A DNA stretch of 48,197 nucleotides from a virus, in the IMG/VR virus record IMGVR_UViG_3300046455_000220, positions 1 through 48,197 of that record; one strand, given 5' to 3'. Shown here piece by piece: positions 1,592-15,736 of this stretch (position 1 is the stretch's first letter; the number at the start of each line of letters is the position of its first letter). A program made the translations under genes and the position numbers. The notes under the pieces are model-generated. The model was not told where the DNA came from, did not search any database, and was given only the letters and a program-made list of their open reading frames with translations.

Positions 1592-1973
1592 GGCCCCCCA
1601 GGGCCTCCGGAGAGGTTAGGGCCCCTGGAGGGCCGTTACGCCCCAGCGGAAAGGGGGCCGGAGGCCCACCTAAAGGACGTGCGAACAGAGTACGGGCCAC
1701 CTGGGCCGATAGCAAGATCAGGAGGCAAACAGTATAGATCACCCCAGAAATGATCAATCCGGACAGACGCAAATGATCTGGACCGAAAGTAGCGGAAATA
1801 ACGAATCCGGCTATAGGCGCCTTTTGGAAATCTTGTTCACCCCTCCGCAAGCGCGCGGCGCGCATGATACGTTGCGATCAACACAGGAAACCCCGGCAGG
1901 CTAGGCCTACCGGGGTCCCGTTCCGCAACAGCGCGCCAACGCTTTGCGGGATGGCCAGTCTGGAGGGACTGAC
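1592..1973. promoter_or_regulatory. Conserved leader region upstream of integrase
   Basis: 382 bp without a convincing gene. It begins with GC-rich hairpins (1592-1680), followed by about 200 bp nearly identical to 46830-47000 in the second copy, and a hairpin CCCCGG...CCGGGG (1891-1915) just before the integrase. A minus-strand frame with a hydrophobic segment (1865 leftwards) exists in both copies, but most differences between copies change amino acids and the frame diverges at its end, so I do not call it a gene. Serine-integrase attP sites often lie next to the integrase, so this is one candidate location for attP. Confidence 0.4.
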
Positions 1974-4043
1974 ATGGGTAATAGTACAGGTCTGCTTGCG
2001 CGCGGCGAAACGGCCCCGGGCACACCGCCCCTTACGGGCACGTTCCAAGGTCCGGTTAGGACCACACGCGCGGCCCTTATGGCCCGTGTCTCGACCGCCG
2101 AACAAGTCGACGGATACGGAATCAAAGTCCAAATCCAGGCTGGGGAAGCACATATAGCGGGGAAAAAGGGCTGGATTCTCCCTAAGGAACTCATCTTTAT
2201 TGATGAGGGCGTTTCCGGATCCGTTATCGACCGTCCCGCAATGCTGCGCCTGGAAGAGGCCGCGCGGGCGGGCCTCATTGACGTAATCGTAGTCCACAAG
2301 TTTGACCGCATTGGCCGTACGGGTCGTGCGTTCTGGTCCTGGATTTGGGCAATGGAAGATTTGGGAATTTCCTTTGTCTCCGTAACCCAGAATATTGACT
2401 CCAGTACCAAATTCGGCAAACAGCAATTGCAATTTTATGCCATGATGGCAGAGGCCGAATGGGACCTTATTCGGGACCGGACGGTTAGCGGTCGGAATAC
2501 CGCAGCACTTGAGGGCCGCTGGCCTAGCGGCACTCCCGCTTACGGGCACAAGTCGGTAGGCCCCCGCAAAAAGCGTATGGCTGTCGTCAATAAGAAGGAA
2601 GCCAAGGTAATCAAGACTGCCACTGAACTAATTCTAGATCAGGGCATGACTGCCGAGGATGCGGCACGGGAACTGAATTCCCTTGGTTACCGCACCCGTA
2701 CGGGCGCACAGTGGACCGGGCCTAACCTTACGGCGCGCCTTAAGAGCGCTACCGTTCGGGGGGAGTTCATTTACCGTAATCCCGATAAGTCGGGGAACAA
2801 GGTAAAGATGAACATTGATGGGACTCCCCTTTACGGGGACAGCATCACCATTAAGCTCCCCAAGATTCTTTCCAAGAAGCGGCATAACGCGCTGCTCGCT
2901 CGATTTAAGCTGCGCTCCCGTCCTAAGACGTCCTTTCAGGATTACCCCCTTTCTACCCGCATCGTGAGCGGGTGTGGACACTACACAGGAAGGTTTGACC
3001 GCACTAACGGGCAGAGGTTTTATCACTGCCTTAACCGTGCGGGTAAGCCGTGCAACGATCTGCCCATCGTTGCGGACGATATTGATAACGCCGTCTGGGG
3101 GAAGATTTCCGAGACGATTAACGACAGGGAGCAACTAGAGAGGATCGCCCAAGACTGGGTTAAGAAGATTCCCGGGGACATCAAAGATAAGCGGAAGCGC
3201 GTCGACGCCCTCACTAGGAGCGTCGAAAGGATTGAAACTGACCTAGTCACGGCAACGGTAAACCTTGCCACCATGACCGGCATTACCGAAAACATTAAAG
3301 CGGCTGCACTCGACAGGCTGAATACCGACCTTATGGGGGAACGGGAGTTGCTGCGGGAGGCCGAGGAAATCCTTAAGGAACACGAGGAGGTGGAGGCTCG
3401 CGTTAACTCGGTTATGGCCGTGGTGGAGTCGGCGCAAGCCAAAATCCGGGAAATCTCTCTCTCCGAAATGGCGGAGGTTATGGAGATCTTCAAGATTAGG
3501 GTTGAGCTTGCGGGGACCCTTAAGGGGAACCGTCCGGGCACTCCGTGCAAGATGTCTTCCTGGCACGAGGAAACGGGGGAGCTAGTCCCGGACTATGTGA
3601 GCGAGGATGAGTGGCCGGACGTTGAGGCGTTCCTCCGGGAGTCCCTTGGGCGACGCATGCCGTTCGTGCGGTCTGGTACGCCCCTGCGGGTGCAGATCAA
3701 CGGGGTGTTGTACAGGCTGCGGCATAACTGTGCGTTCTCGGAGGTCCCGGAGGAGTACGGGACCATGCAGACGCTCAAGAAGAGGCAAGAACAGCTCTGG
3801 GGGGCCGAGGTGTGGCCGCAGTTGGTGAAGGTGCTGAACATGCGCCGTCCGGGTGCTCCCATGCCTCCTGTCCGCTACCTGCCGCCTCTGATCATCAGGG
3901 GTGAGCTAGTTGGGGACCTCCGGTTGGTAGGCACCGACACCGCAGCAGACAAACAGCCTTCAACAAGGCCGTTCGGGAAGTGGAGTAAGGGGACCGACCT
4001 AGCAACAGCGCGTGGACTGCCGTTCGCCCTACTCACGAACTAG
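1974..4043 (+). CDS. int: Large serine recombinase (integrase), copy 1
   Basis: 689 aa, started at ATG 1974 because GGAGGG lies 6 bp upstream and both copies share this arrangement. The N-terminal catalytic domain has ARVSTAEQ (nucleophile Ser), DEGVSGSVIDRP and VVHKFDRIGRTGRAFW, then the recombinase domain (TPAYGHKS... RTRTGAQW), a zinc-ribbon remnant (SGCGHYTG ... YHCLNRAGKPC) and a long coiled-coil region (about residues 390-490). It catalyses site-specific integration by attP x attB recombination. No directionality factor is recognised. The C-terminal roughly 130 residues extend beyond the usual core. Confidence 0.95.
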   Translation: MGNSTGLLARGETAPGTPPLTGTFQGPVRTTRAALMARVSTAEQVDGYGIKVQIQAGEAHIAGKKGWILPKELIFIDEGVSGSVIDRPAMLRLEEAARAGLIDVIVVHKFDRIGRTGRAFWSWIWAMEDLGISFVSVTQNIDSSTKFGKQQLQFYAMMAEAEWDLIRDRTVSGRNTAALEGRWPSGTPAYGHKSVGPRKKRMAVVNKKEAKVIKTATELILDQGMTAEDAARELNSLGYRTRTGAQWTGPNLTARLKSATVRGEFIYRNPDKSGNKVKMNIDGTPLYGDSITIKLPKILSKKRHNALLARFKLRSRPKTSFQDYPLSTRIVSGCGHYTGRFDRTNGQRFYHCLNRAGKPCNDLPIVADDIDNAVWGKISETINDREQLERIAQDWVKKIPGDIKDKRKRVDALTRSVERIETDLVTATVNLATMTGITENIKAAALDRLNTDLMGERELLREAEEILKEHEEVEARVNSVMAVVESAQAKIREISLSEMAEVMEIFKIRVELAGTLKGNRPGTPCKMSSWHEETGELVPDYVSEDEWPDVEAFLRESLGRRMPFVRSGTPLRVQINGVLYRLRHNCAFSEVPEEYGTMQTLKKRQEQLWGAEVWPQLVKVLNMRRPGAPMPPVRYLPPLIIRGELVGDLRLVGTDTAADKQPSTRPFGKWSKGTDLATARGLPFALLTN

Positions 4044-4457: not shown

Positions 4458-4460
4458 ATG
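4446..4460 (+). promoter_or_regulatory. Possible leaderless promoter -10 for the HTH gene
   Basis: TAGGAT ends 6 bp before the ATG at 4458, the spacing expected if transcription starts at the A of the start codon. There is no Shine-Dalgarno at this start. Three other genes (41707, 41988, 44452) share the arrangement. Confidence 0.5.
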
Positions 4461-4889
4461 TCTTCCCCCCTCAGCCGTAAGCCTCATCCCAACCCGGAAA
4501 TTGAGGCCACGATTAAGGCTGTGTACGACAATGCGGGACAGCAGGTTCGTACATATGCGGAGGCCGCCGCATATCTGGGAGTAAGCAAAAACACCATTGC
4601 TTCCCGCTTGCGGAGGGCGGACCTATCAGCCCTAAGCGCGGTGCCTTACGAGGATTACACGCCCGAAAATGTCGACCCTGAACACTTTGGTGATCGGGAG
4701 CACATTATGCTCCGCACACTTGCGGAGGAAGCGTCGGGCATGCGTATTAGTGACAAACGACAGAGGGAACTTGACCGCTTTAAGACAAAGTCCCTTAATC
4801 TCGTCGTTGTGTACGACCCAGAATACGGCTATTACTGGCGTAAGCGCGGCCAGCGTGACCGTGATTTCTGGGTGGTCCAAGAGGACTAG
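4458..4889 (+). CDS. Helix-turn-helix protein, candidate phage regulator
   Basis: 143 aa. Residues about 30-55 (RTYAEAAAYLGVSKNTIASR) form a clear helix-turn-helix; the rest has no recognised domain and ends in an aromatic, basic segment (YGYYWRKRGQRDRDFW). It lacks a Shine-Dalgarno and has TAGGAT-N6-ATG, typical of leaderless messages such as those of several phage repressors. A perfect 21-bp operator lies 84 bp upstream. It is one of the candidates for the protein that reads the phage-wide operator; that link is inference. Confidence 0.7.
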   Translation: MSSPLSRKPHPNPEIEATIKAVYDNAGQQVRTYAEAAAYLGVSKNTIASRLRRADLSALSAVPYEDYTPENVDPEHFGDREHIMLRTLAEEASGMRISDKRQRELDRFKTKSLNLVVVYDPEYGYYWRKRGQRDRDFWVVQED

Positions 4890-5165: not shown

Positions 5166-5549
5166 GTGTCGCACGCTGCGGGCGGATGCTCTGCCATGAT
5201 GGATGACCCTAGCGGAAGGGTCTACCGGACTGTAAGAATTGACTTTGACGCCAAAGTAGAAGTCGGTTTCGATACAGACCATAAGCGCCTTTACGTAGCC
5301 CTGGGGGAAGACTGTGACTGGTCCCTGGCTGGCCAAACCCTAAAGGGCAATGAGGCCCTTTTCGGGGAACCGGTAATCGAGGATGTTCGAGGCGACAGGT
5401 TGTGGTACGAATGGAATGTTCCGACTGAATACATCGCCCGGTACTTTCCCCACGTACGAAGCAAAGAGGACGTTCCGCACGAGCACGCTATCCCCGACTT
5501 CTACGGCCTCCCCGGGGCCGCGAGTGAAAAAGGAGGCCATATATCGTAG
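5166..5549 (+). CDS. Unknown protein, first gene of early operon
   Basis: 127 aa from GTG 5166; a start at ATG 5196 or 5199 is also possible, since no clear Shine-Dalgarno decides. Acidic, single-domain looking (FDAKVEVGFDTDHKRLYVAL, YFPHVRSKEDVPHEH), no motif recognised. The 3' end overlaps the start of the nuclease gene, and its last codons carry that gene's AGGAGG. Confidence 0.6.
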   Translation: MSHAAGGCSAMMDDPSGRVYRTVRIDFDAKVEVGFDTDHKRLYVALGEDCDWSLAGQTLKGNEALFGEPVIEDVRGDRLWYEWNVPTEYIARYFPHVRSKEDVPHEHAIPDFYGLPGAASEKGGHIS

Positions 5550-6328
5550 CGCATAAAAGCGTATCCCAATTCCTCGCCTACTCTGGATGCTCCGAGCGTT
5601 ACCGGCTAGAGCGTCTCGATAAGGTGCCACAGACCCCCGCCGGTTGGACGCTACAGGGTCTTGCGGTACATGAGGCAATAGAGGCATGGGAACGCTCTAA
5701 CAGAACAATGGACATGGCGGGCGCCACCGACGTTTACGAGTCGGCATGGCGCCTTCACCTTTCCCGCATGCTAAAGGATGAGCCAGACACTGATAAATGG
5801 ATGACTGGCAATCCTCGCACTAAGGGCAGCGTGGACCTTAGCCGTAGATTCGGCCGAGGGGTCGAGCAACTAGAGCGTTACATCCATAACGCTCTAAACG
5901 AGGGGTGGACCATTTGGGAAACCCCCGACTATGAGCCCGCAATAGAGTTGCCCTTTAAAATCTTCCTCGGTACCATTGAGGTAGTTGGGTATATCGACCA
6001 AATCAGAGAATACCCGGACGGCAGTCTAAGGATCGTCGACCTGAAATCGGGAACGAAAATTCCCGCATGGGACTTTCAGCTAGGCGTTTACCGCCTTGCA
6101 ATTATTGAGTCTTATGGGGTAGAGATTAACGACGGGTCATTCCTTATGCTTAAGGACGATAAAGAGGTTGGCCCGACTGATCTCACCCGTTACACTTCGG
6201 AACGGCTAAAGGCATGGTTTGATGGCCTAAACCGTGGCATAGAATCCGAATCATTCATCCCTAATGTCGGGGATCAATGCCGGATATGTAGTGTATGGAA
6301 GTACTGTTCAGCCAAGGAAAGGAACTAA
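5543..6328 (+). CDS. RecB/Cas4-like PD-(D/E)xK nuclease with apparent ATC start
   Basis: Residues SVSQFLAYSGCSERYRLERL, GLAVHEAIEAWE, VVGYIDQIREYPDGSLRIVD-LKSG and the Cys-containing C-terminus (DQCRICSVWKYC) match the RecB-family exonuclease/Cas4 layout: the IDQ...IVDLKSG is the catalytic D-(D/E)xK core and the Cys residues likely bind an Fe-S cluster. The conserved N-terminus lies upstream of the first GTG (5624). In this frame, between the stop at 5525 and 5624, there is no ATG, GTG, TTG or CTG; ATC at 5543 stands 6 bp after AGGAGG (5531-5536). Likely role: DNA end processing in replication or recombination. 261 aa. Confidence 0.8.
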   Translation: MVAHKSVSQFLAYSGCSERYRLERLDKVPQTPAGWTLQGLAVHEAIEAWERSNRTMDMAGATDVYESAWRLHLSRMLKDEPDTDKWMTGNPRTKGSVDLSRRFGRGVEQLERYIHNALNEGWTIWETPDYEPAIELPFKIFLGTIEVVGYIDQIREYPDGSLRIVDLKSGTKIPAWDFQLGVYRLAIIESYGVEINDGSFLMLKDDKEVGPTDLTRYTSERLKAWFDGLNRGIESESFIPNVGDQCRICSVWKYCSAKERN

Positions 6329-6329
6329 A

Positions 6330-6836
6330 TTGGATAACGAAAACGGACGTCCCGAGGTAGCCTTTAATAGCGGTATCACGGTTACGGTTAAGGCTGGCCC
6401 CGGTTACGATGCTCCGTGGATCGTCATTCACGCCACGGACGCGGACCATGCGGATGCGATGATCCAGGAGGCGCAGCGGGTACGCCTTACCGAAAGCGTC
6501 GGTAACCTCCATAACGAGTTTGCGGCTATCGAGTTGCTTAAGCGTGAGCTTGGAGCGACGGAGGTTAAGGGCAATGGACGCTCTTACGGGTCGTCTAACG
6601 GCGGGAACGGCGGTGGTCGCTCCTATGGTGGTGGAGGCGGTAATCAGGGTGGAGGTGGAGGCGGAGCGGCCCCTAGCGGCCCTCCGGCGAACCATGATCT
6701 TGCGACCGAATGCCGACACGGTGAAAAGAACTATGTGAGCGGCATTTCCCAGAAGACTAACAAGCCGTGGTTTGGCTTTGACTGCCCCCAGAATTACAAG
6801 CAGGGTGAATGTGCTAGGTTCGCTAAGGCCGGGTAA
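6330..6836 (+). CDS. ssDNA-binding-like protein with Gly-rich linker and zinc-type tail
   Basis: 168 aa from TTG 6330, with AAAGGA 6 bp upstream. The N-terminal ~85 residues carry VAFNSGITVTVKAGPGYDAPWIV; residues about 90-130 are a Gly/Ser-rich flexible linker; the tail has TECRHGEKNYVSG...KPWFGFDCP, a Cys/His set seen in actinophage single-strand-binding-like proteins. The place between a RecB-like nuclease and a DnaB-like ATPase fits a role at ssDNA. The exact SSB call is inference. Confidence 0.6.
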   Translation: MDNENGRPEVAFNSGITVTVKAGPGYDAPWIVIHATDADHADAMIQEAQRVRLTESVGNLHNEFAAIELLKRELGATEVKGNGRSYGSSNGGNGGGRSYGGGGGNQGGGGGGAAPSGPPANHDLATECRHGEKNYVSGISQKTNKPWFGFDCPQNYKQGECARFAKAG

Positions 6837-6860
6837 CCGGTCTTTTTTTTACCCAAGAAT

Positions 6861-6881
6861 GCACACCCCCTGGGTGTGTGC
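6861..6881. promoter_or_regulatory. 21-bp operator inside the early operon
   Basis: GCACACCCC-CTG-GGTGTGTGC, perfect outer arms. On the plus strand the -35 position reads ATGCAC, but the -10 position (6882-6887, ACGGAA) has no -10 resemblance. It may act as a repressor site that blocks elongation rather than as a promoter. Confidence 0.7.
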
Positions 6882-6896
6882 ACGGAAGTAGGTTGA

Positions 6897-7685
6897 TTGC
6901 TTACCCTCGTACGTGCCCGCCAATTGGCAGGCAAAGCGGGTGAGCCTCTACCAACCGCATTCCCCGCCCTTGAAAAGGCGGGGGTGCATATCCGGCGCGG
7001 ACAGCTAACGCTAATCGCGGCAGGATCCGGCACCGGAAAGTCAGCGTTTACGCTCACCGTGGCCTCAAGGGCAGAGGTACCCACCCTATATTTTTCCGCC
7101 GACTCCGACGCCTTTACCCAATACACGCGATTGGGTGCCATGCTTACAGAAACCCCCGTATGGGCGGTTGAAAAAGATATGGACGCAGGCAAATCGGTTC
7201 ACTACGATACACAAATAAATAACCTTGATTACCTACGCTGGGAATTCGACGCAGCACCAACGCTTGACACGTTGGATATGGATATCAGGGCTTTCGGATA
7301 TACGTATGGATGCTGGCCACAGATGGTAATCGTGGACAATATCAAAAACGTCTGGACGGAATCCGAAAACGAAAACAACCGCTACAGTGAGATTATCGAT
7401 TACCTGCACGAACTAGCCCGTAAAACGGGCGCGGCGGTAGTCGCCCTCCACCACCTTACCGGCGAATACGACGACGGTATAAAGCCTGCCCCAATGTCTT
7501 CCCTACTGGGCAAGGTATCCAAGATTCCGGCAATGATCCTAACCCTCCATAAAGAGGGTAGCTCGGATTTCGAGAATCTAAAACTTAACGTGTCAGTGGT
7601 AAAGAATCGCGGCGGAAAAGCTGACCCTTCTGGGCAATGGTTCATTACTCTTCCTGCTAATCTCGAATACATGCAGATCGGATAA
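6897..7685 (+). CDS. DnaB-like replicative ATPase/helicase (RecA fold)
   Basis: 262 aa from TTG 6897 (an in-frame stop lies just upstream). Walker A is GSGTGKSAF (about residue 43), Walker B is PQMVIVDNIKN, followed by ALHHLTG and a C-terminal VVKNRGGK basic motif, the order found in DnaB C-terminal domains (AAA-like RecA ATPases). The N-terminal DnaB domain is missing, so it could be a loader-type or minimal helicase. Next to primase genes in the same operon. Confidence 0.75.
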   Translation: MLTLVRARQLAGKAGEPLPTAFPALEKAGVHIRRGQLTLIAAGSGTGKSAFTLTVASRAEVPTLYFSADSDAFTQYTRLGAMLTETPVWAVEKDMDAGKSVHYDTQINNLDYLRWEFDAAPTLDTLDMDIRAFGYTYGCWPQMVIVDNIKNVWTESENENNRYSEIIDYLHELARKTGAAVVALHHLTGEYDDGIKPAPMSSLLGKVSKIPAMILTLHKEGSSDFENLKLNVSVVKNRGGKADPSGQWFITLPANLEYMQIG

Positions 7686-7695
7686 AGGAGAAAAC

Positions 7696-7938
7696 ATGAC
7701 TGAGAGCACGCTTAAGGACCCGATTGTGAACATTCTCGTCAAGGGCGAGGAGGTTCCCCGTGTGGTCGACAACGGTGACGGCACCGTCACGTGGAACCTC
7801 AAGAAGGAGGCTGCCGCCGCGATCGCTCTTGCGGCCCTCAAGCAGACGCTTACCGGCCTCATGGACGGACGCTCCGGCCGTCGCTCCTCGGCCCCCTCTG
7901 GTGGCTTTGCTGACTTCCTCAAGGGTGGTGGCATCTGA
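7696..7938 (+). CDS. Small unknown protein
   Basis: 80 aa from ATG with AAAGGAG 6 bp upstream. Acidic N-terminal half (VPRVVDNGDGTVTWNLKKEA), Ala-rich helix, then a basic Ser/Gly tail (GRSGRRSSAPSGG). No family recognised. Its stop overlaps the presumed CTG start of the next gene. Confidence 0.65.
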   Translation: MTESTLKDPIVNILVKGEEVPRVVDNGDGTVTWNLKKEAAAAIALAALKQTLTGLMDGRSGRRSSAPSGGFADFLKGGGI

Positions 7939-8375
7939 CGGCCCGCAAAGGCTACAGGGAGTGCGTCAAGTGCCATAGGAACCGCGCTGAACGGTTCTTC
8001 AAGGGGACTAGGGGGAAGATGTGCGCTGCCTGCCGTAAGGGCGGGCAGCGTGCCTCTAGCCGCAATGCGCGGCTACTCAAAACGTACGGCCTCACAAACG
8101 AGGATTACCGAACCCTTTTCGAACATCAGGGCGGGGTTTGTGCTATCTGCCTAGAGCCACGCCGCACCAATTTGGCCGTTGATCACTGCCACAAGACGGA
8201 AGCGATCAGGGGCCTTTTGTGTGCCCGCTGTAACGGGCAATTGCTTGCCCGTGGGGCGAGAGATAGGCCAGACGTCCTAAGGCGTGCTGCGGACTATCTA
8301 GAGAACTATCCGGCCGATAAGGCGCTAGGGCGCCGGTACACATTCGACAAACAGGAGGACATGCCTAATGGCTAA
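7935..8375 (+). CDS. HNH endonuclease, endonuclease VII-like, with apparent CTG start
   Basis: 146 aa if read from CTG 7935 (CTGA overlap with the upstream stop). CVKC and CAAC form the N-terminal zinc pair, then YGLTNEDYRTLFEHQGG, CAIC, LAVDHCHKT, RGLLCARCN: a full endonuclease VII-type HNH protein. The first ATG (8019) would remove the first zinc pair, and no ATG/GTG/TTG is in frame close upstream. Related in design to the gene at 754 but clearly diverged, so it is an independent insertion. Likely a homing-type endonuclease or a resolvase-like nuclease. Confidence 0.8.
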   Translation: MTARKGYRECVKCHRNRAERFFKGTRGKMCAACRKGGQRASSRNARLLKTYGLTNEDYRTLFEHQGGVCAICLEPRRTNLAVDHCHKTEAIRGLLCARCNGQLLARGARDRPDVLRRAADYLENYPADKALGRRYTFDKQEDMPNG

Positions 8376-8556
8376 GGGAATCACGTACGGCATTTCGCTT
8401 AAGGGCAAGCTTAACGAGGAAACGGGAGGGAACGTTATCTCCCTGGACGCCCTTAAGGCTTTCATCTATGAGGTACAGGACTCTATCGGTACCGACGACG
8501 ATCCGCTTATCCGGCTCGATTGGGATTCCCTCACCTACTCGTACGAGGAGAACTAG
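8368..8556 (+). CDS. Small unknown protein
   Basis: 62 aa from ATG 8368, overlapping the end of the HNH gene, with AGGAGG about 10 bp upstream. Short acidic protein (ALKAFIYEVQDSIGTDDDPL), no motif recognised. Confidence 0.6.
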   Translation: MAKGITYGISLKGKLNEETGGNVISLDALKAFIYEVQDSIGTDDDPLIRLDWDSLTYSYEEN

Positions 8557-8558
8557 GC

Positions 8559-8753
8559 ATGCCCCGACACAACGGCAACACGACTAAGGCCAGTAAGCGA
8601 CAGGCGCGTATCGACCGTGCCCGATTCGGCACGACTAACGATCCCGAGGATTGGGAGCGTTACACGCGTCAGATGATGCGCGATTATCCCGAGGACTACT
8701 CCTCCTCATGGACCAGTGAGACGGCCCAAGAGGGGCGTTACATGGGGGACTAA
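8559..8753 (+). CDS. Small basic unknown protein
   Basis: 64 aa from ATG 8559 with GAGGAG 8 bp upstream. Basic N-terminus (PRHNGNTTKASKRQARIDR) and acidic, aromatic C-terminus (DYPEDYSSSWTSE). Stop overlaps the next ATG (TAATG). No family recognised. Confidence 0.6.
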   Translation: MPRHNGNTTKASKRQARIDRARFGTTNDPEDWERYTRQMMRDYPEDYSSSWTSETAQEGRYMGD

Positions 8754-9157
8754 TGGATCCGGTAGATAAGCCGTCCATTAAGGAATTGCTAGAGCACTAC
8801 GACGCGGAACACGTCATAGACCGGGGCTCATGGGCCCCGGTTAAGTGTCCCTTTCACGAGGACCGTAGCGCTAGCGCGTCCGTAAATACGGGCCTGAACA
8901 CCTTCAAATGTCATACATGCGATTTCGGGGGCGACAGTTTCGCCCTGGTCATGTGGAGAGAGGGGATAACCGATTTCGGTAGTGCCATCGAATTCTGTGA
9001 AGGAATTCTTGGAGGAAGCTACGGCGGGATACAACAAGGCGGTAAAGGGAAACGCCGCCGCAGAAACGTTCTTGACGAAGAGGTTCGGGCCCCTGTGGCA
9101 GGACAGCGCTCGATTCTTTCGTCTAGGCGTCGTAGACGACCCGTTGCCGGGTCATGA
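8753..9157 (+). CDS. Primase zinc-finger (CHC2) protein
   Basis: 134 aa. CPFHEDRSASASVN followed by FKCHTCDFGGDSF is the CHC2 zinc ribbon of DnaG-type primases, which recognises the template initiation site. The TOPRIM catalytic part is in a separate overlapping gene in another frame. After about residue 100 the reading becomes basic and low in similarity. Joining the two products would need a +1 shift; otherwise they act as two subunits. Confidence 0.8.
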   Translation: MDPVDKPSIKELLEHYDAEHVIDRGSWAPVKCPFHEDRSASASVNTGLNTFKCHTCDFGGDSFALVMWREGITDFGSAIEFCEGILGGSYGGIQQGGKGKRRRRNVLDEEVRAPVAGQRSILSSRRRRRPVAGS

Positions 9158-9635
9158 ACAATACCGAGGAATGCTAGCCATTCCCTACGAGGCCCCCTAT
9201 GGGGTCGTGGGAATGAAATTCCGATGCCTCTTGGACCACGACTGTAAAACAGTCCATAAGACCCGGTACCTTAACCCTGCGGGTAATGAGCTAAGGCTCT
9301 TCAATACGGCAGACCTATTCCGTAACGAGGAATACCTAGCCATTGCTGAGGGCGAAATAGACGCGATTACCTCGCATCTATCAGGAATTCCCACGGTAGG
9401 CGCCCCGGGCGCGACTAGTTGGAAGCCCGAATTTACCCGCATGATCAGAGGCTATAAGGCGGTTTACGTGTACGCGGACAACGATGATGGCGGAACGGGT
9501 CTGGAAAAGTTTGCGGAGCCATTGGCCGCACTCATCACTAACGCTCGCGTAATCCTCCTTCCCGAGGGACACGACGTTAACTCGTTTGTTCAGGAAAACG
9601 GCTACGACGCACTTAAGGAGCTAATAGGTGTCTAA
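8982..9635 (+). CDS. Primase TOPRIM-domain protein
   Basis: 217 aa from GTG 8982, with GTG 8997 and TTG 9009 as alternatives. Residues LEEATAGYNKAVKGNAAAET and RFFRLGVVDD match the segment following the zinc ribbon in phage primases; YLAIAEGEIDAITSH is the TOPRIM Glu motif and VYVYADNDDGGTG the DxD motif. It should make RNA primers together with the product of the overlapping CHC2 gene. Confidence 0.85.
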   Translation: MPSNSVKEFLEEATAGYNKAVKGNAAAETFLTKRFGPLWQDSARFFRLGVVDDPLPGHEQYRGMLAIPYEAPYGVVGMKFRCLLDHDCKTVHKTRYLNPAGNELRLFNTADLFRNEEYLAIAEGEIDAITSHLSGIPTVGAPGATSWKPEFTRMIRGYKAVYVYADNDDGGTGLEKFAEPLAALITNARVILLPEGHDVNSFVQENGYDALKELIGV

Positions 9636-10065
9636 GTTTCAGATTTTCGACAACGTGACTTACGTCCCCTCCGGGGATGCCGGGGTTATCTCCGACATTC
9701 GAGAGCACGGCGCGATGTCCCGAGAATATTACGTCACCTTCCCCGATCAGCCGGGCCTTTCCGGCCGCTGGACGACATACGTTTACCTTGCACCCCGTGC
9801 GCAGACCCGTAAGCAGGCTGCACGAACGGCGGGGGAGGCCCTGGTAAAGGGTGAGCGACAGAACACTTACGGGGATCCGGACGTGTCCTTTAACCGCATC
9901 GCAAAGCTTTGGTCGGCCCACCTCGGGACGGAGGTCACTAAGCGGGACGTCGCCCTAATGATGATCCTAATGAAAGTGTCTCGCGAAAAGAGCAGCCATA
10001 AGGCGGATAACCTAGACGATATTGAGGGTTACGTTTACTGTGCCCGGATCCTTAAGGAGGTCTAA
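9628..10065 (+). CDS. DUF6378-like phage protein
   Basis: 145 aa from GTG 9628 with AAGGAG 8 bp upstream. The C-terminal half (ALVKGERQNTYGDPDVSFNR, LWSAHLG, KADNLDDIEGYVYCARI) has the pattern of the phage family DUF6378, found in nucleotide and replication operons. The N-terminal 45 residues look like a small beta domain. The biochemical role of the family is unknown. Confidence 0.65.
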   Translation: MSKFQIFDNVTYVPSGDAGVISDIREHGAMSREYYVTFPDQPGLSGRWTTYVYLAPRAQTRKQAARTAGEALVKGERQNTYGDPDVSFNRIAKLWSAHLGTEVTKRDVALMMILMKVSREKSSHKADNLDDIEGYVYCARILKEV

Positions 10066-10304
10066 TGTACTTCCCTAAGCAGGAATTTGCTTGCGAGGAA
10101 AGCGACGGGAGTGATTACATTACCGTCGCGGAAAGCAGATACGACCCGGACGCCGTTTATGTCACGGCCTCCGAGCACAACGGCGCAGGGGTCATGACTC
10201 ACCACATCGGATTTTTCCTCACCCCCCGGGATGCCGTCGCCCTGGGCCTCCGGCTAGCGCGTGAGGGACTTGCCAAGGTTAGGAGCACCGCTAATGATGC
10301 GTGA
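10065..10304 (+). CDS. Small unknown protein
   Basis: 79 aa, ATG overlapping the upstream stop (TAATG). Acidic N-terminus (ACEESDGSDYITVAESRYD) and a C-terminal helix (LGLRLAREGLAKVR). Resembles small actinophage proteins of unknown function; no domain named. Confidence 0.6.
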   Translation: MYFPKQEFACEESDGSDYITVAESRYDPDAVYVTASEHNGAGVMTHHIGFFLTPRDAVALGLRLAREGLAKVRSTANDA

Positions 10305-10467
10305 ATGCCAAGAAACGCTTACGGTCGGCCGCTTCCAGTTGTGCTTTATTCGCTCTGGCGATAGCCAGTCGGTATCCATTCTCAATGAGCACGGCGACGA
10401 AATCGCCTATGACGAAATCACCTACTATGAGGCCGCCGGTTTGGTCGACTTTTTCGAAGGAGCGTAA
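10294..10467 (+). CDS. Small unknown protein
   Basis: 57 aa from ATG 10294 (AGGAG 8 bp upstream), overlapping the previous gene by 11 bp. Acidic C-terminus (EIAYDEITYYEAAGLVDFFE). No family recognised. The next gene begins directly after its stop. Confidence 0.55.
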   Translation: MMRECQETLTVGRFQLCFIRSGDSQSVSILNEHGDEIAYDEITYYEAAGLVDFFEGA

Positions 10468-11271
10468 TTGAAGCACGATGCTAGTAGCCCGTATACCGTA
10501 GTCCTTATTCCTGACACTCACGTGCCGGAACATCACACGGGCGCGGTTGCCAATATTGGCGCCCTCCTAGAAGAGGTCAAGCCTAAGGGTGTTGTCCATA
10601 CCGGTGACTTCCTGAATCTCGACGCTCCCTCCCGCTGGTCTAAGGGAACCATTAACGAGTTTGCGGGGGGTGTTCACGAGGAGCGGGAAAAGGGTAAGCG
10701 TGTCCTAGAGTTTTGGCGGAGTAAGCATGACGGTTACTTTGGCCTCCACCTCGGTAACCACGATATCCGCATTAGCGCATATCTTCAAAAGTATGCGCCT
10801 GCCGTAGCGGGGATGCCGGAATGGCAGTATGACCGCCTCTTGGACCTCCCCTCGTTTGGTATTGAGGTACGGGACAGTATCCATAAGATTGCCCCCGGTT
10901 GGGTTTCCACGCATGGCGATAACCGCGAAATCAAGATGACGCAAACGGCCGGAGGCACGGCCTATAACGCGGCCGTCAAGTATGACCAGAATGCGGTGTG
11001 TGGTCACACGCATAGGGCGGGACTTGTCCAGACGTCCCACGGTTACGGGGGCCGTATGCGCTCCAAAATCGGTATGGAGATTGGCCACATTAGCGATATG
11101 GCTAAGGTCACGTACCTGGGTACCGGTTACGCAAATTGGCAAATGGCGTTTGGCATGCTGCACGTTTCCGGTAATCGGGTGCAGCCGCAAGTAATCCTCA
11201 TGGCTAATAACGGATCGTTCATCTATGACGGGATGCGGTTTGAAAATGGCAAGATTAGGAAGGCTGCATGA
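10468..11271 (+). CDS. Calcineurin-like metallophosphoesterase
   Basis: 267 aa from TTG 10468, placed directly after the previous stop, with GAAGGAG upstream. Motifs in order: LIPDTHVPEH (D-x-H), VVHTGDFLN (GD), LGNHDIR (GNHD), GWVSTHGD and CGHTHRAGL: the metal-binding set of binuclear metallophosphatases. Substrate unknown; in phage operons such enzymes are proposed to act on nucleic acids or nucleotides. Confidence 0.85.
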   Translation: MKHDASSPYTVVLIPDTHVPEHHTGAVANIGALLEEVKPKGVVHTGDFLNLDAPSRWSKGTINEFAGGVHEEREKGKRVLEFWRSKHDGYFGLHLGNHDIRISAYLQKYAPAVAGMPEWQYDRLLDLPSFGIEVRDSIHKIAPGWVSTHGDNREIKMTQTAGGTAYNAAVKYDQNAVCGHTHRAGLVQTSHGYGGRMRSKIGMEIGHISDMAKVTYLGTGYANWQMAFGMLHVSGNRVQPQVILMANNGSFIYDGMRFENGKIRKAA

Positions 11272-11915
11272 TGAGTTACAACCCGGAAGACTTTGTTAGC
11301 CTCGCTCGGTCGGTTGCGCGCAGCTTTGCGCGTGACTGGCCCGGCATTGACGCCGACGATTTGCACGGCGAGTTGAACCTTAAGCTAGTGGAAAAGCGGC
11401 ACTTTTTCGAAAAGACGACCGGTAACCTTAACGGCGCGGTTGGCGCCTATCTCCGAAAGTATGCAACCGAGTATTGCGCTAAGGAGCGCTACCGGGCCGT
11501 TTACGGCACCCCCCATTACATGTACGGAACCGATGAGGTAGCCGTACTCCTAGAGGTCTACTACCTCCCCCGGGACGCATGGGCAGAGGCTAGCCCTACG
11601 GCCACGTACGGGCGTGAAAAGACCCGTGACGGGCGGTCCATGGTTACGGCCCTCATCGACGTTGACAAGGCCTATCAGGGGCTCACGGAGGCGCAAGCGA
11701 GCACACTCCGGGATGACTGGGAGCACGGCCCCCAGGAGGCCGCTAAGCGTAACGACAAGTCCCTTGCCACATGGTCTAGGGCGCACTCCCGCGCGGTAAT
11801 GCGTTTGCGTGACCTCATGAACAATGAACGGCTTATCGCTATCGATGCACATGACGGGCCCGGGGCCCGTAAGCGTATGAGTAACAGCACGGCGCAAGTA
11901 ATCACTAATCGGTAG
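11268..11915 (+). CDS. Sigma-like / DNA-binding protein
   Basis: 215 aa, ATGA overlap with the upstream stop. DADDLHGELNLKLVEK near the N-terminus is like sigma-70 region 2, and the C-terminal half (AYQGLTEAQASTLRDDWEHG ... LATWSRAHSRAVMRLRDLMN) is like a region 4 helix-turn-helix. Could be an ECF-type sigma factor for late genes or a Holliday-junction/regulatory protein; weakly supported beyond the general pattern. Confidence 0.5.
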   Translation: MMSYNPEDFVSLARSVARSFARDWPGIDADDLHGELNLKLVEKRHFFEKTTGNLNGAVGAYLRKYATEYCAKERYRAVYGTPHYMYGTDEVAVLLEVYYLPRDAWAEASPTATYGREKTRDGRSMVTALIDVDKAYQGLTEAQASTLRDDWEHGPQEAAKRNDKSLATWSRAHSRAVMRLRDLMNNERLIAIDAHDGPGARKRMSNSTAQVITNR

Positions 11916-11927
11916 GGAGATAAAGCA

Positions 11928-12209
11928 TTGAAGAAGAATACTGCTAACACTGACAGCCGTTTCGACTGGGTTTACAATCCGAACCTTTCTGGTCCGGCCG
12001 TCAAGGACGAAAAGCCCGGTAAGATCGTAAACGCTATCGCGTTTACTATCGTCTTTATCCTCATTACGGGCCTAGTGTTCCTTTGGCTGGGATTCCTCGC
12101 AGTCCTCATCATGATTGTATTCGGCCTTTCCTTCCTTAAGGCCTACGCGGCAGGCGTGCTTTTCAACATGCTACTTGTCGCCATCACCACCAATAAGAAG
12201 ACTAAGTAA
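11928..12209 (+). CDS. Small membrane protein
   Basis: 93 aa from TTG 11928. Soluble N-terminus of about 30 residues, then two hydrophobic segments (about 33-53, AIAFTIVFILITGLVFLWLG, and 54-82) and a lysine-rich end. No family recognised. It lies between regulatory and RNR genes in the same operon. Confidence 0.65.
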   Translation: MKKNTANTDSRFDWVYNPNLSGPAVKDEKPGKIVNAIAFTIVFILITGLVFLWLGFLAVLIMIVFGLSFLKAYAAGVLFNMLLVAITTNKKTK

Positions 12210-12220
12210 GGAGCTAAACA

Positions 12221-14275
12221 ATAACTAGCCTGGCAATTCTCGACGAAATCAATTGGGGCCCGACGGGCCAGACCGTTTACGAAAGGACTTACTCTCGCCC
12301 TAAGGCGGACGGCACTAAGGAAACGTGGCCCGAAACGGTTACCCGCGTCGTTGACGGTAACCTGGGACTTGTCCCCCCGGACGCTATCGAGCCGGGGGAA
12401 CGGGAGGATCTCATTTCCTTTATGCGGGACTTCAAGATCCTGCCCGCTGGACGGCATCTTTGGGCCTCCGGCGTTAAGGGACGGCAGTACCTCTTTAACT
12501 GTCACATTGCCCCCTGGGACGTTAAGCGGCCCGAACGGCATTTCTCCTTCGTATTCCTCCGCCTCATGGAAGGTGGAGGCGTAGGGGCCAACTATTCAGA
12601 TGACCGCCTTAGCGGCTATCCGGAAGTGGAAAACGTCCTAGACATTCACATTGTGTGTGACCCCGAACATCAGGACTATGCGGCCCTTAAGGAGGCCGGT
12701 CTACTGTCCACCACCTATACGCCCGATTGGGTGGGGGCCTACGAGGTAGAGGACTCCCGAGAGGGATGGTGTACATCCCTAGAGCATCTGATTAAGGACG
12801 CTCACGATTGGAACCTAATGCATCGGGCGCGAGTCTTTGACGTGTCCCGTGTGCGGCCCTCTGGGGCGCGTCTGAAGGCCTTTGGCGGCAGGGCCTCCGG
12901 TCCCCTTCCATTGGCGCAGATGCTTAAGAGCGTTGCTGCCATTCTGAACAATCGGGGGAAGTATCACGGAACCCTTACCGGCATGGACGCTATGGCCATA
13001 GATCATGCCATTGCGGAATGCGTTGTCTCGGGTGGCGTAAGGCGTTCCGCCCGTATGGCAATGAAACATTGGAAGGATCCGGACGTTATCGACTTTATCC
13101 GCTGTAAGGAGGACAGCGGGAGCCATTGGACGACGAACATTAGCGTCATTGTGGACCAGGAATTCATGCAGGCCATTAACGGTGACCTGGGCCTAGAATG
13201 GCAGATGAACGCTACACGCGTTATGGACGAAACCGTAAACGGTATGCTCGTTAACGGCGAACCTGGTTTCTTCAATCAGACGCTAGCCCAGGTGGGCGAG
13301 GTGGACCCGATAGAGGCCACTAACCCGTGTGGCGAGATTCCAGGGCCACAGATGATGGCGTGTTGCCTTGGGCACGTGAATATGCAAGCTTTCGTGAAGC
13401 CTGACGGTAAGGTCGACTATGAGAACCTACTAAAGGCTCACCGGCTCGTAACCAGGTTCCTTATCCGTGCCACGTTCGGAGACTTTACGGATGAGGAGCA
13501 GCTAGCCGTAATGCGGCGGGAACGCCGTATTGGAGTCGGTCACTTTGGCGTACAGGGTCACTTGAACCTTAGAGGTATCCGGTACTCTCACGCTCCCCGT
13601 GATCGGCGTTTCCGCTACGACCTGGAGGAGCTTTACGACACGGTGAGGGATGAGGCTCGCGAGTATGCCTTTAAGCTTCGGATCCCGGAGCCTATCAAGG
13701 TAACGACTGTTGCCCCCACGGGGTCCATTGCGAAGCTTCCCGGGGTGCCGGAAGGTGATCAGGCGATTTACGGCCGGTACTTTCTCCGACGGATCCGTTT
13801 TTCAGCGGTGGACCCTGAACAGATGGCACAAGTCAAGGCATACGAAGATGACGGATATCAGGTAGAGGACTGCATTTACGCGGCCAATACTAAGGTTGTC
13901 ACCATTCCGACTAAGGATACTCTGATTGCGGAAATGGAGGCTCGGGGCCTTGACCCCGATATTGTCGAGTCTCAGGACCAAATCAGCCTGGAAAGCTCCA
14001 TAAAGTTTCAGGCCATGTACCAAACCTATTACGCGGACAACGCGATTTCCCACACGGTAAACATCCCGGAGGGCAGTGTTACCGCAGATGAGCTTAAGGC
14101 AGTGCTGATTAAGTATCTGCCCAAGCTTAAGGGGACAACCATTATGGTTGATTCCTCCCGCCCACAGTCTCCCTATGAGCGAATGACTCGTGAGGAGTAT
14201 GAGGCTGCAAAGGCCAAGAGTGTTTCTGACGCTATCGATTTGGAGTGTGCAACGGGAGCGTGTCCGATCCGATAA
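12221..14275 (+). CDS. Class II (B12-dependent) ribonucleotide reductase with apparent ATA start
   Basis: 684 aa. LFNCHIAPW near residue 90 and TNPCGEIPGP near residue 370 carry the active-site Cys residues, and VAPTGSIAKLPG is the phosphate-binding motif: the monomeric class II NrdJ/RTPR type that reduces ribonucleoside triphosphates using adenosylcobalamin. The typical phage N-terminus (TVYERTYSRP) is upstream of the first ATG (12422). In frame after the stop at 12215 the first well-spaced codon is ATA 12221, 7 bp after AAGGAG (12208-12213); CTG 12230 is too far from it. Supplies dNTPs with ThyX and the deaminase. Confidence 0.9.
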   Translation: MTSLAILDEINWGPTGQTVYERTYSRPKADGTKETWPETVTRVVDGNLGLVPPDAIEPGEREDLISFMRDFKILPAGRHLWASGVKGRQYLFNCHIAPWDVKRPERHFSFVFLRLMEGGGVGANYSDDRLSGYPEVENVLDIHIVCDPEHQDYAALKEAGLLSTTYTPDWVGAYEVEDSREGWCTSLEHLIKDAHDWNLMHRARVFDVSRVRPSGARLKAFGGRASGPLPLAQMLKSVAAILNNRGKYHGTLTGMDAMAIDHAIAECVVSGGVRRSARMAMKHWKDPDVIDFIRCKEDSGSHWTTNISVIVDQEFMQAINGDLGLEWQMNATRVMDETVNGMLVNGEPGFFNQTLAQVGEVDPIEATNPCGEIPGPQMMACCLGHVNMQAFVKPDGKVDYENLLKAHRLVTRFLIRATFGDFTDEEQLAVMRRERRIGVGHFGVQGHLNLRGIRYSHAPRDRRFRYDLEELYDTVRDEAREYAFKLRIPEPIKVTTVAPTGSIAKLPGVPEGDQAIYGRYFLRRIRFSAVDPEQMAQVKAYEDDGYQVEDCIYAANTKVVTIPTKDTLIAEMEARGLDPDIVESQDQISLESSIKFQAMYQTYYADNAISHTVNIPEGSVTADELKAVLIKYLPKLKGTTIMVDSSRPQSPYERMTREEYEAAKAKSVSDAIDLECATGACPIR

Positions 14276-14460
14276 AGGATCGGCGGGTTAAGTATCTGTC
14301 TCACTACGGGGTTCGTTTCTGTTGCGTTTGCGGATGGACGGAAATGGACCTCGTTTTGAGCGGAGATTCTTTCTCTGCCGAATGGTACGACGAATGCCCT
14401 AACGGCTGTTTCGATAAGGAGCAATACGAACTTGCGTGTAACGCTAATCGCAAAGACTGA
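14260..14460 (+). CDS. Small zinc-ribbon-like protein
   Basis: About 66 aa from GTG 14260 (GTG 14245 also possible; neither has a well-spaced ribosome site), overlapping the end of RNR and the start of ThyX. FCCVCGWTE and CPNGCFD form a four-Cys zinc-binding pattern. Unknown function, but conserved position between two nucleotide enzymes. Confidence 0.55.
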   Translation: MSDPIKDRRVKYLSHYGVRFCCVCGWTEMDLVLSGDSFSAEWYDECPNGCFDKEQYELACNANRKD

Positions 14461-15160
14461 AACCAATTACTATGCAATGGAGGACGCTACCGATGGACTG
14501 TACGACCCAGAAGGGTACATACAGGAAAACGGTGTTGGCGCAGACGACATAACTAACGGCTGTGATTCGGTCCCCGTATTCGGGGGCCGTGCCTGCTATC
14601 AGTCTTGGCATAAGCCTAATCCGGCTACGGCAACAGAGATGGGCTACCTAAAGAACATTCTTGACCAGGGCCATTACAGTGTTCTGGAGCATTCCTCGGC
14701 CACGTTCTACGTGACAGGGGTTAGCCGGAACATGACGCATGAGCTAATCCGACACCGGCACTTGTCCTATTCGGAAATGTCACAGCGTTACGTCGACATG
14801 GAACACTCCCGAATGGTTATCCCTCCGGCCCTACGAGGGGAGTATGGGGGTGGCGAAACAGCCCCCCTGCCGTGGGCGCCTCTAAGGGACTATGAGGCGA
14901 CGGTAAACCGGCTCAAGGCTTCCGGCCTTAAGCGCAAGGAAGCACGGGAGGCCGCTAGGGCGGTCCTCCCCGGAGGGACAGAAACCCGCATTGTCGTTAC
15001 CGGCAACATGCGTGCATGGCGCGATTTCCTCAATAAGCGTTGGCATGTAGCGGCAGACGCGGAGATTAGAGAGTTCGCCGGAAACATCCTTGCCCAGCTA
15101 AAGGATATCGCCCCTGGGTGTTTCCAAGATTACGACACAACCCAACCAATTGGAGGTTAG
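14432..15160 (+). CDS. thyX: Flavin-dependent thymidylate synthase ThyX
   Basis: 242 aa from TTG 14432 with AAGGAG 10 bp upstream. RHRHLSYSEMSQRYV is the ThyX signature (RHR-x7-8-S); HSSATFYVTGVSRNMTHELI precedes it, as in the family. It methylates dUMP to dTMP using FAD, NADPH and methylene-tetrahydrofolate. Fits with the dCMP deaminase two genes downstream, which supplies dUMP. Confidence 0.95.
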   Translation: MRVTLIAKTETNYYAMEDATDGLYDPEGYIQENGVGADDITNGCDSVPVFGGRACYQSWHKPNPATATEMGYLKNILDQGHYSVLEHSSATFYVTGVSRNMTHELIRHRHLSYSEMSQRYVDMEHSRMVIPPALRGEYGGGETAPLPWAPLRDYEATVNRLKASGLKRKEAREAARAVLPGGTETRIVVTGNMRAWRDFLNKRWHVAADAEIREFAGNILAQLKDIAPGCFQDYDTTQPIGG

Positions 15161-15164
15161 CTAA

Positions 15165-15326
15165 ATGGCTATCGTGGAAAAGGTTTCCACCTATTACGAG
15201 TGCACGATTTGCGGCATGCAATATTCGTGGCCCATTGAAGACTGCATGAATTCCACCGACGCGCAGCATCAAGCGGCAGGTGGAGGCGGTGGCGGTGGCG
15301 GTGGCGAAGGTGAGGGGGAGGGCTAA
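15165..15326 (+). CDS. 53-aa Cys protein with Gly-repeat tail
   Basis: ATG 15165 with GGAGG upstream, 4 bp after thyX. MAIVEKVSTYYECTICGMQY has a CxxC, a third Cys follows, and the end is a run of eight glycines followed by GE repeats. Likely a half zinc-ribbon with a flexible tail. The tail codons also supply the GGGGGAGGG ribosome site of the next gene. Confidence 0.6.
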   Translation: MAIVEKVSTYYECTICGMQYSWPIEDCMNSTDAQHQAAGGGGGGGGGEGEGEG

Positions 15327-15328
15327 CC

Positions 15329-15736
15329 ATTAGCCGTATAGGTTGGGACGCGTACTTTATCGGCGTAGCAAGGGCCGTAGCGGCTAGAGCCGACTGCACT
15401 AGATCAGAAGTTGGCGCAGTCCTGGTCAAGGACAACCGCATCATGGCTACTGGATACAACGGGGCCCCCTCGGGGGCCCCTGGGTGCCTTACAGCGGGTG
15501 CATGCCCTCGTGGCAGGCTGGACTACTCAGAGCGGCCCCCAGGGGGCACATACGGCGACTGTATAGCCGTTCATGCGGAGCGAAACGCATTGGAAGAGGC
15601 AGGCAGGCGAGGAACCATTAAGGCAACCCTGTACATAACTAGGGCCCCGTGCGGCGAATGCGAGGCAGCGATTTGGAAGTCTGGCGTTACCCGCATTGTG
15701 TGGGATAGCCCAGAAGGACTCATGTCCCTAACGTAA
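15329..15736 (+). CDS. dCMP deaminase with apparent ATT start
   Basis: 135 aa. HAERNALEEAG (zinc His and catalytic Glu) and PCGEC (zinc cysteines) define the cytidine/deoxycytidylate deaminase fold. The conserved start IGWDAYFIGVARAVAARADC lies upstream of the first ATG (15440s). After an in-frame stop at 15311 the only candidate near the ribosome site is ATT 15329, 6 bp behind GGAGGG. The enzyme makes dUMP for ThyX. Last gene of the early operon, followed by a strong terminator. Confidence 0.9.
   Translation: MSRIGWDAYFIGVARAVAARADCTRSEVGAVLVKDNRIMATGYNGAPSGAPGCLTAGACPRGRLDYSERPPGGTYGDCIAVHAERNALEEAGRRGTIKATLYITRAPCGECEAAIWKSGVTRIVWDSPEGLMSLT

Follow-up and report, generated by a model that had tools for sequence, protein, structure and literature searches.

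Do phages begin genes of DNA and nucleotide metabolism at ATC, ATA and ATT? The question is raised by the IMG/VR record IMGVR_UViG_3300046455_000220, a contig of 48,197 bases from a metagenome (G+C 56%), which we analyzed over its full length and call the window. A previous reading of its letters alone (hereinafter, the sequence-only reading) had proposed that its genes for a Cas4/RecB-like exonuclease, a class II ribonucleotide reductase (RNR) and a deoxycytidine monophosphate (dCMP) deaminase start with ATC at 5543, ATA at 12221 and ATT at 15329, respectively. These three codons are collectively termed ATH below, and ATG, GTG and TTG are termed NTG; standard gene finders consider no ATH as a start. 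Our comparisons strongly support the proposal that these are genuine starts, and neither errors nor substitutes for starts farther downstream, because of their retention in relatives, their exact alignment with the start codons of homologs and the purifying selection on the codons behind them.

Three genes with ATH start codons

The elements of the three genes are the following:
5543..6328, plus strand: Cas4/RecB-like exonuclease gene (PDDEXK_1, phrog_69), from domain and phrog matches
5543..5545, plus strand: ATC start codon of the exonuclease; no in-frame NTG, with ATC also in the relatives G002, G004, G008 and G009
5531..5536, plus strand: Shine-Dalgarno (SD) sequence AGGAGG of the exonuclease, from sequence; 6-nt spacer, duplex with the anti-SD of -12.2 kcal/mol
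5166..5549, plus strand: gene upstream of the exonuclease, its stop TAG (5547-5549) overlapping the exonuclease start
12221..14275, plus strand: class II (adenosylcobalamin) RNR gene, from homology and the RNR_Alpha domain
12221..12223, plus strand: ATA start codon of the RNR, shared with six further contigs and aligned with the GTG/ATG start of homologs
12208..12213, plus strand: SD sequence AAGGAG of the RNR, overlapping the upstream stop codon; 7-nt spacer, -8.1 kcal/mol
15329..15736, plus strand: dCMP deaminase gene, from homology and the dCMP_cyt_deam_1 domain
15329..15331, plus strand: ATT start codon of the deaminase; ATT in G002, G003 and G006, GTG aligned with it in L022 and L023
15317..15322, plus strand: SD sequence GGAGGG of the deaminase, from sequence; 6-nt spacer, -11.9 kcal/mol

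Each ATH codon is preceded at 6–7 nt by an SD sequence, and from the preceding in-frame stop up to the conserved domain the frame contains no NTG, just as the sequence-only reading had described. The room available for an alternative start upstream is small: the exonuclease frame begins behind a stop that ends at 5527, with 15 bases (five codons) preceding the ATC; the RNR frame opens at 12218, with just ACA (3 bases) ahead of the ATA; and the deaminase frame opens at 15314, 15 bases before the ATT. In the other direction, the first in-frame NTG lies 27 codons inside the exonuclease (GTG 5624), 67 codons inside the RNR (ATG 12422) and 38 codons inside the deaminase (ATG 15443). The Pfam domains PDDEXK_1, RNR_Alpha and dCMP_cyt_deam_1 begin at residues 6, 12 and 6, respectively, counted from the ATH codons, so that any of these downstream codons would cut into the conserved domain, another point on which the earlier description was correct. 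The TAG/ATC overlap makes it possible that the exonuclease is translationally coupled to the gene upstream; the deaminase frame of the window also overlaps its upstream gene by some bases.

Conservation of the starts in relatives and homologs

Relatives of the window were found in IMG/VR, from other metagenomes, at 76–100% identity, with one exonuclease relative at 62%. An independent contig from another metagenome (G001) covers positions 1421-22691 at 99.8–99.9% identity and has identical start codons. Comparison of the same codons in more diverged relatives, which the sequence-only reading had suggested, found the exonuclease ATC in all five lineages compared, down to 62% amino-acid identity, despite changed flanks and a one-codon indel: the start region reads AAGGAGGccatatATC in the window and identically in G002, AAGGGGGtagcatATC in G008, AAGGAGGcgatagcATC in G004, with an extra codon after the ATC, and AGGGAGctaatATC in G009 (62% identity). 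The RNR ATA is likewise kept in five of five lineages (window, G002, G003/G006, G004 and G005), in each case preceded by AAGGAG and 7 bases of variable sequence. The ATT of the deaminase is found in three of five (window, G002 and G003/G006).

The homologs place their own starts at the same codons. About 36 distinct RNR homologs (49–58% identity) have ATG, GTG or TTG at the position of the ATA, a few residues before the GPTG motif, and this codon mostly precedes a threonine (VTTEVNWGPTG in L220; VTSEINW, with Thr as the second residue, in L198), just as the ATA of the window's clade is followed by Thr (ITTEINWGPTG). The exonuclease homologs share the HxSVSQ register, and their NTG sits at the ATC position or a few codons before it. 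In the case of the deaminase, the homologs L022 and L023 have GTG at the window's ATT codon, with Ser-Arg next in window and homologs alike. The codons that precede the first NTG are themselves under purifying selection: their ratio of nonsynonymous to synonymous polymorphism (pN/pS) is 0–0.04 in the RNR, 0.10–0.29 in the deaminase and 0.17–0.34 in the exonuclease (one row for the rest of the RNR, that of L004, was disregarded, an indel having put it out of register). These alignments show where the genes start, that alternatives are absent, that the starts are conserved and, by way of selection, that the 5′ codons are translated.

A CTG start and recurrence in cultured phages

A fourth gene of the window lacks an NTG start:
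7935..8375, plus strand: endonuclease VII (HNH; PF02945) gene, with CTG as its start, overlapping the upstream stop as CTGA; CTG in four contigs, family from Pfam

The sequence-only reading had presented it as an HNH gene dependent on CTG; the start is borne out by the four contigs, whereas the gene is better named endonuclease VII. Its frame opens at 7914 and the first NTG is ATG 8019, 28 codons past the CTG, which is the only candidate; the SD is not of the AGGAGG type (duplex -8.7 kcal/mol).

ATH starts are also seen beyond the window's relatives, in the DnaB-like helicases. Across 87 distinct 5′ contexts of this gene the aligned first codon is ATG in 44, GTG in 22, TTG in 11, ATC in four, ATA in two, ATT in one and CTG in three (four of the ATG and one of the GTG cases were placed after correction of the register by eye). 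Seven of the non-NTG loci have no in-frame NTG upstream (L104, L108, L110, L130, L133, L139 and L168), and the others have one farther upstream (L105, L109 and L112). One of the former, L133, is the Mycobacterium phage Blue7, whose helicase gene reads TGAAAGGAGTAGCACATCTATACGCCCCG, with an ATC start, whereas its sister phage CloudWang3 (L259), 99.4% identical across the gene, reads TGAAAGGAGACCATGTATACGCCCCG, with ATG at the identical codon. The ATC start is present in the cultured mycobacteriophages Blue7, Zulu, Hammer, Lilbunny and miche, where, as in the window's genes, it belongs to a replication gene, lies behind an SD (AAAGGAG) and has no in-frame NTG upstream; in contrast, the window's own DnaB-like helicase uses TTG. 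In all five phages the deposited helicase start is 20 codons downstream of the ATC (gp72 in Blue7), leaving a 72-base gap, whereas the CloudWang3 gene is annotated from its ATG. The missing segment is:
L257 (JN698999) 375-434: unannotated N-terminus of the Blue7 helicase; likewise in L258, L261, L262 and L315

In Luchador (L260, KR080193, 375) the aligned start is CTG and the annotated gene lacks its first 20 codons; in Jeeves (L317) the corresponding codon is TTG and serves as the annotated start. Judged by these alignments, the helicase is an independent recurrence of ATH starts in several actinophages.

Two further cases were noted in passing. The class II RNR of another actinophage group (L209-L212 and L224) has CTG only, in a CTG ACN that aligns with the ATG ACC of L200/L201. 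A metallophosphoesterase gene of L119, at about 4350, has an apparent ATC start behind GGGAGG, and L200 and L201 have CTG starts.

Proposed initiation and its alternatives

Within the window the phenomenon is confined: about 46 other genes, compared with relatives, have NTG at or close to the conserved start, and no further convincing non-NTG start was found among them; therefore, we see no contig-wide failure of gene calling. The canonical genes (n=43) have SD duplexes with a mean of -9.0 kcal/mol and a standard deviation of 3.1. The strong SDs that had been ascribed to all three ATH genes are thus confirmed for the exonuclease and the deaminase, which fall within the top 14–19% of contig genes, and not for the RNR. 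A general rule of stronger SDs at genes with ATH starts was rejected, as it fails for the RNR.

Initiation factor 3 (IF3) rejects initiation complexes in which the start codon is mispaired with the initiator anticodon. The sequence-only reading had suggested weak translation of these genes or their induction at low IF3, a connection grounded in published work on infC and sigR. In the explanation that we favor, the three ATH codons are the true starts: the well-spaced SD would position host ribosomes with formylmethionyl-tRNA on ATC, ATA or ATT for initiation, probably with help from ribosomes terminating on the adjacent upstream gene. Because the third codon base cannot pair properly with the initiator anticodon, initiation would be inefficient and open to rejection by IF3, and the genes would be made at a low, IF3-sensitive rate, like infC, pcnB and the Streptomyces sigR. 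By analogy with such genes, those of the phage should be translated weakly and in an IF3-sensitive manner; low efficiency, IF3 dependence, coupling and any regulatory use are inferences here. Taken as a whole, we consider it very probable that ATC, ATA and ATT act here as real, weak, SD-dependent and IF3-sensitive starts.

Several observations weigh against this interpretation. The deaminase has NTG in two of five lineages (TTG in a TTGA overlap in G004, and a possible GTG in G005). The SD of the RNR, although well spaced, is ordinary, with 72% of the canonical genes having one at least as strong. The third base of the ATH starts varies at least as much as that of Ile codons inside the genes (19/35 invariant in the RNR, 2/6 in the exonuclease), and the lineages compared have a common ancestry. 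Selection for one exact third base, which we considered, is hence unsupported, its constancy being comparable to that of the internal Ile codons.

These points fit an alternative that we regard as quite plausible, if not the favored one: the ATH codons would be real starts devoid of regulatory meaning, with good SDs and coupling rendering the start codon unimportant, such that it persists by drift or tolerance. Such an explanation accommodates, besides the background-level constancy of the third base, the switching of start codons between sisters, with ATC in Blue7 and ATG in CloudWang3, CTG in Luchador and TTG in Jeeves, and ATT or TTG/GTG in the deaminase, as well as the probable ACG start of the tape measure gene of the phage Corndog, which entails no obvious loss of the protein (PMC4351075). 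Against it, the exonuclease ATC and the RNR ATA survive in every lineage though ATG is one mutation away, and ATH codons cost about 70–90% of expression in bacterial measurements (PMC13009471). The CTG start of endonuclease VII and the NTG codons in two of the five deaminase lineages point to tolerance, and not to a strict requirement, as the explanation for part of the pattern.

At the other extreme, the weak starts could constitute a true regulatory switch, with lowered free IF3, brought about by the phage or by host conditions, jointly derepressing the exonuclease, RNR and deaminase and thereby timing nucleotide supply and DNA processing. We consider this unlikely. The three genes do form one functional group in one rightward block, and infC itself has a non-canonical start, ATT in E. 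coli (the codon named in the sequence-only reading) and, in Streptomyces, ATC; IF3 also represses a non-canonical start in the latter (PMC5472188). However, the contig has no IF3-like gene by searches for the domain or a homolog, and no recognizable IF3-targeting gene was seen among those scanned; the neighboring ThyX and helicase genes have TTG starts. An Rfam scan of the contig returned two tRNAs only (tRNA-Asn and tRNA-Leu), with no initiator-type tRNA and, near the starts, neither a riboswitch nor any other RNA. Therefore, we see no phage-borne change in initiation.

The remaining explanations dispense with ATH initiation altogether. Fusion to the upstream gene via frameshifting or ribosome bypassing draws on the overlap of the window's exonuclease and deaminase frames with the preceding genes, the exonuclease overlap containing AAAAAGG followed by GGAGG. 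It is very improbable: for the RNR of the window and the exonuclease of G004 and G008, the frame of the downstream gene still contains a stop beyond the end of the upstream gene, which leaves no simple frameshift able to join the two, and frameshift fusion is, from the order of the stops, excluded wherever that order permits a test. Even less credible is translation from the downstream NTG with the conserved stretch left untranslated; gene finders would choose that codon, as in the annotation of Blue7 gp72, but the stretch belongs to Pfam domains, has a pN/pS of 0–0.34 and is exactly homologous to the N-termini of other proteins. Least probable of all is an error of sequencing or assembly that destroyed an ATG or GTG, which, although the contig is metagenomic and its two ends are strain variants of one another, is rejected on the relatives, as the sequence-only reading had anticipated: identical codons recur in contigs from different metagenomes with different flanks, both in the near-identical G001 and in diverged relatives, and the same phenomenon is found in finished genomes of cultured phages.

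The contig and its other genes

The contig, from a soil phage, has the gene content of an actinophage, with a Cas4-like exonuclease, DnaB-like helicase, split primase, endonuclease VII, class II RNR, ThyX, dCMP deaminase, serine integrase, and tail and head genes. Judged by these genes, the closest named phages are those of Mycobacterium and Streptomyces, with the exonuclease and deaminase matches all below 60% amino-acid identity. A megablast search gave no match, and comparison of the terminase placed the structural half distant from known phages, with no near named relative. As for the host, scans of genome contigs with the exonuclease returned no relative, and the resemblance to actinobacterial phages is the sole pointer. 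The contig ends, 1-3069 and 45525-48197, are 92–95% identical without being exact copies, which looks as though two strain variants had been used to close a genome of about 45 kb that is circular or terminally redundant.

The DNA primase is split across two overlapping frames, 8753-9157 (phrog_360) and 8982-9635 (phrog_849). Because both are kept in all relatives, down to 64–73% identity, they probably represent overlapping genes or programmed frameshifting. Within the serine integrase open reading frame (1944-4040), residues 553-627 match an IS4/5-type transposase domain (DUF4096), possibly by insertion or fusion. Upstream of the RNR gene lies a sigma-factor-like gene (phrog_354; 11271-11915), and the product of a small gene at 4458-4889 weakly matches sigma region 4.

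Significance

The mechanism is a known one; what appears new is its unusually dense use in phages. The presence of three relative-conserved ATH starts in a phage of about 45 kb, and of others in cultured mycobacteriophages, means that reference records give wrong N-termini for replication proteins, and proteins that have been expressed or structurally studied may be short by 20–67 residues. A broader reading, which we offer tentatively and consider doubtful, is that actinobacteriophages use IF3-sensitive ATH (and CTG) starts as a recurrent translational throttle, constituting a regulon hidden by NTG-only annotation and tied to the infC feedback loop of the host; it would include the exonuclease, RNR, dCMP deaminase, endonuclease VII, DnaB-like helicase and phosphoesterase. 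Given the start switches between sister phages and the third-base constancy noted above, weakness that is selected and weakness that is merely tolerated are both compatible with the data. Blue7 and CloudWang3 offer a natural ATC/ATG sister pair in a tractable host, M. smegmatis, in which the effect of the start codon on phage fitness and its control by IF3 are directly measurable.

Comparison with known systems

Our searches of the open-access literature, which omits most subscription journals, turned up no paper describing ATH starts in phages. The nearest parallels are bacterial: infC and pcnB of E. coli (ATT), infC of Streptomyces (ATC) and infC of S. aureus (AUA) have ATH behind an SD, as here, and IF3 is known to repress infC (PMC5472188, PMC9410913, PMC13009471). 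E. coli is said to contain just two AUU-started genes (PMC9410913), and in S. aureus AUA and AUU starts yield about 10–30% of AUG expression (PMC13009471). Unlike infC and pcnB, which are host genes numbering one or two per genome, the ATH starts described here number three in a phage of about 45 kb and belong to DNA and nucleotide metabolism. Conserved ATH starts with strong extended SDs were also detected by retapamulin profiling in ccpN (AUA; S. aureus/B. subtilis) and cvfC1 (AUU; S. aureus) (PMC13009471); these are bacterial genes, and the phage RNR, for its part, lacks an extended SD. Among cultured actinophages, the tape measure gene of mycobacteriophage Corndog similarly lacks an NTG start, with a probable ACG from liquid chromatography–tandem mass spectrometry, its mechanism being undecided between ACG initiation and bypassing (PMC4351075). 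It differs in the codon and in encoding a structural protein; in three related phages the gene follows an HNH insertion. The sigR gene of Streptomyces starts with GTC rather than ATH; IF3 fidelity mutations relieve its repression and additional infC represses it, repression by IF3 thus being experimental for sigR and analogical for the phage genes; yet it resembles them in its conserved non-canonical start, extended ribosome-binding site, actinobacterial setting and having been overlooked by annotation (PMC5472188).

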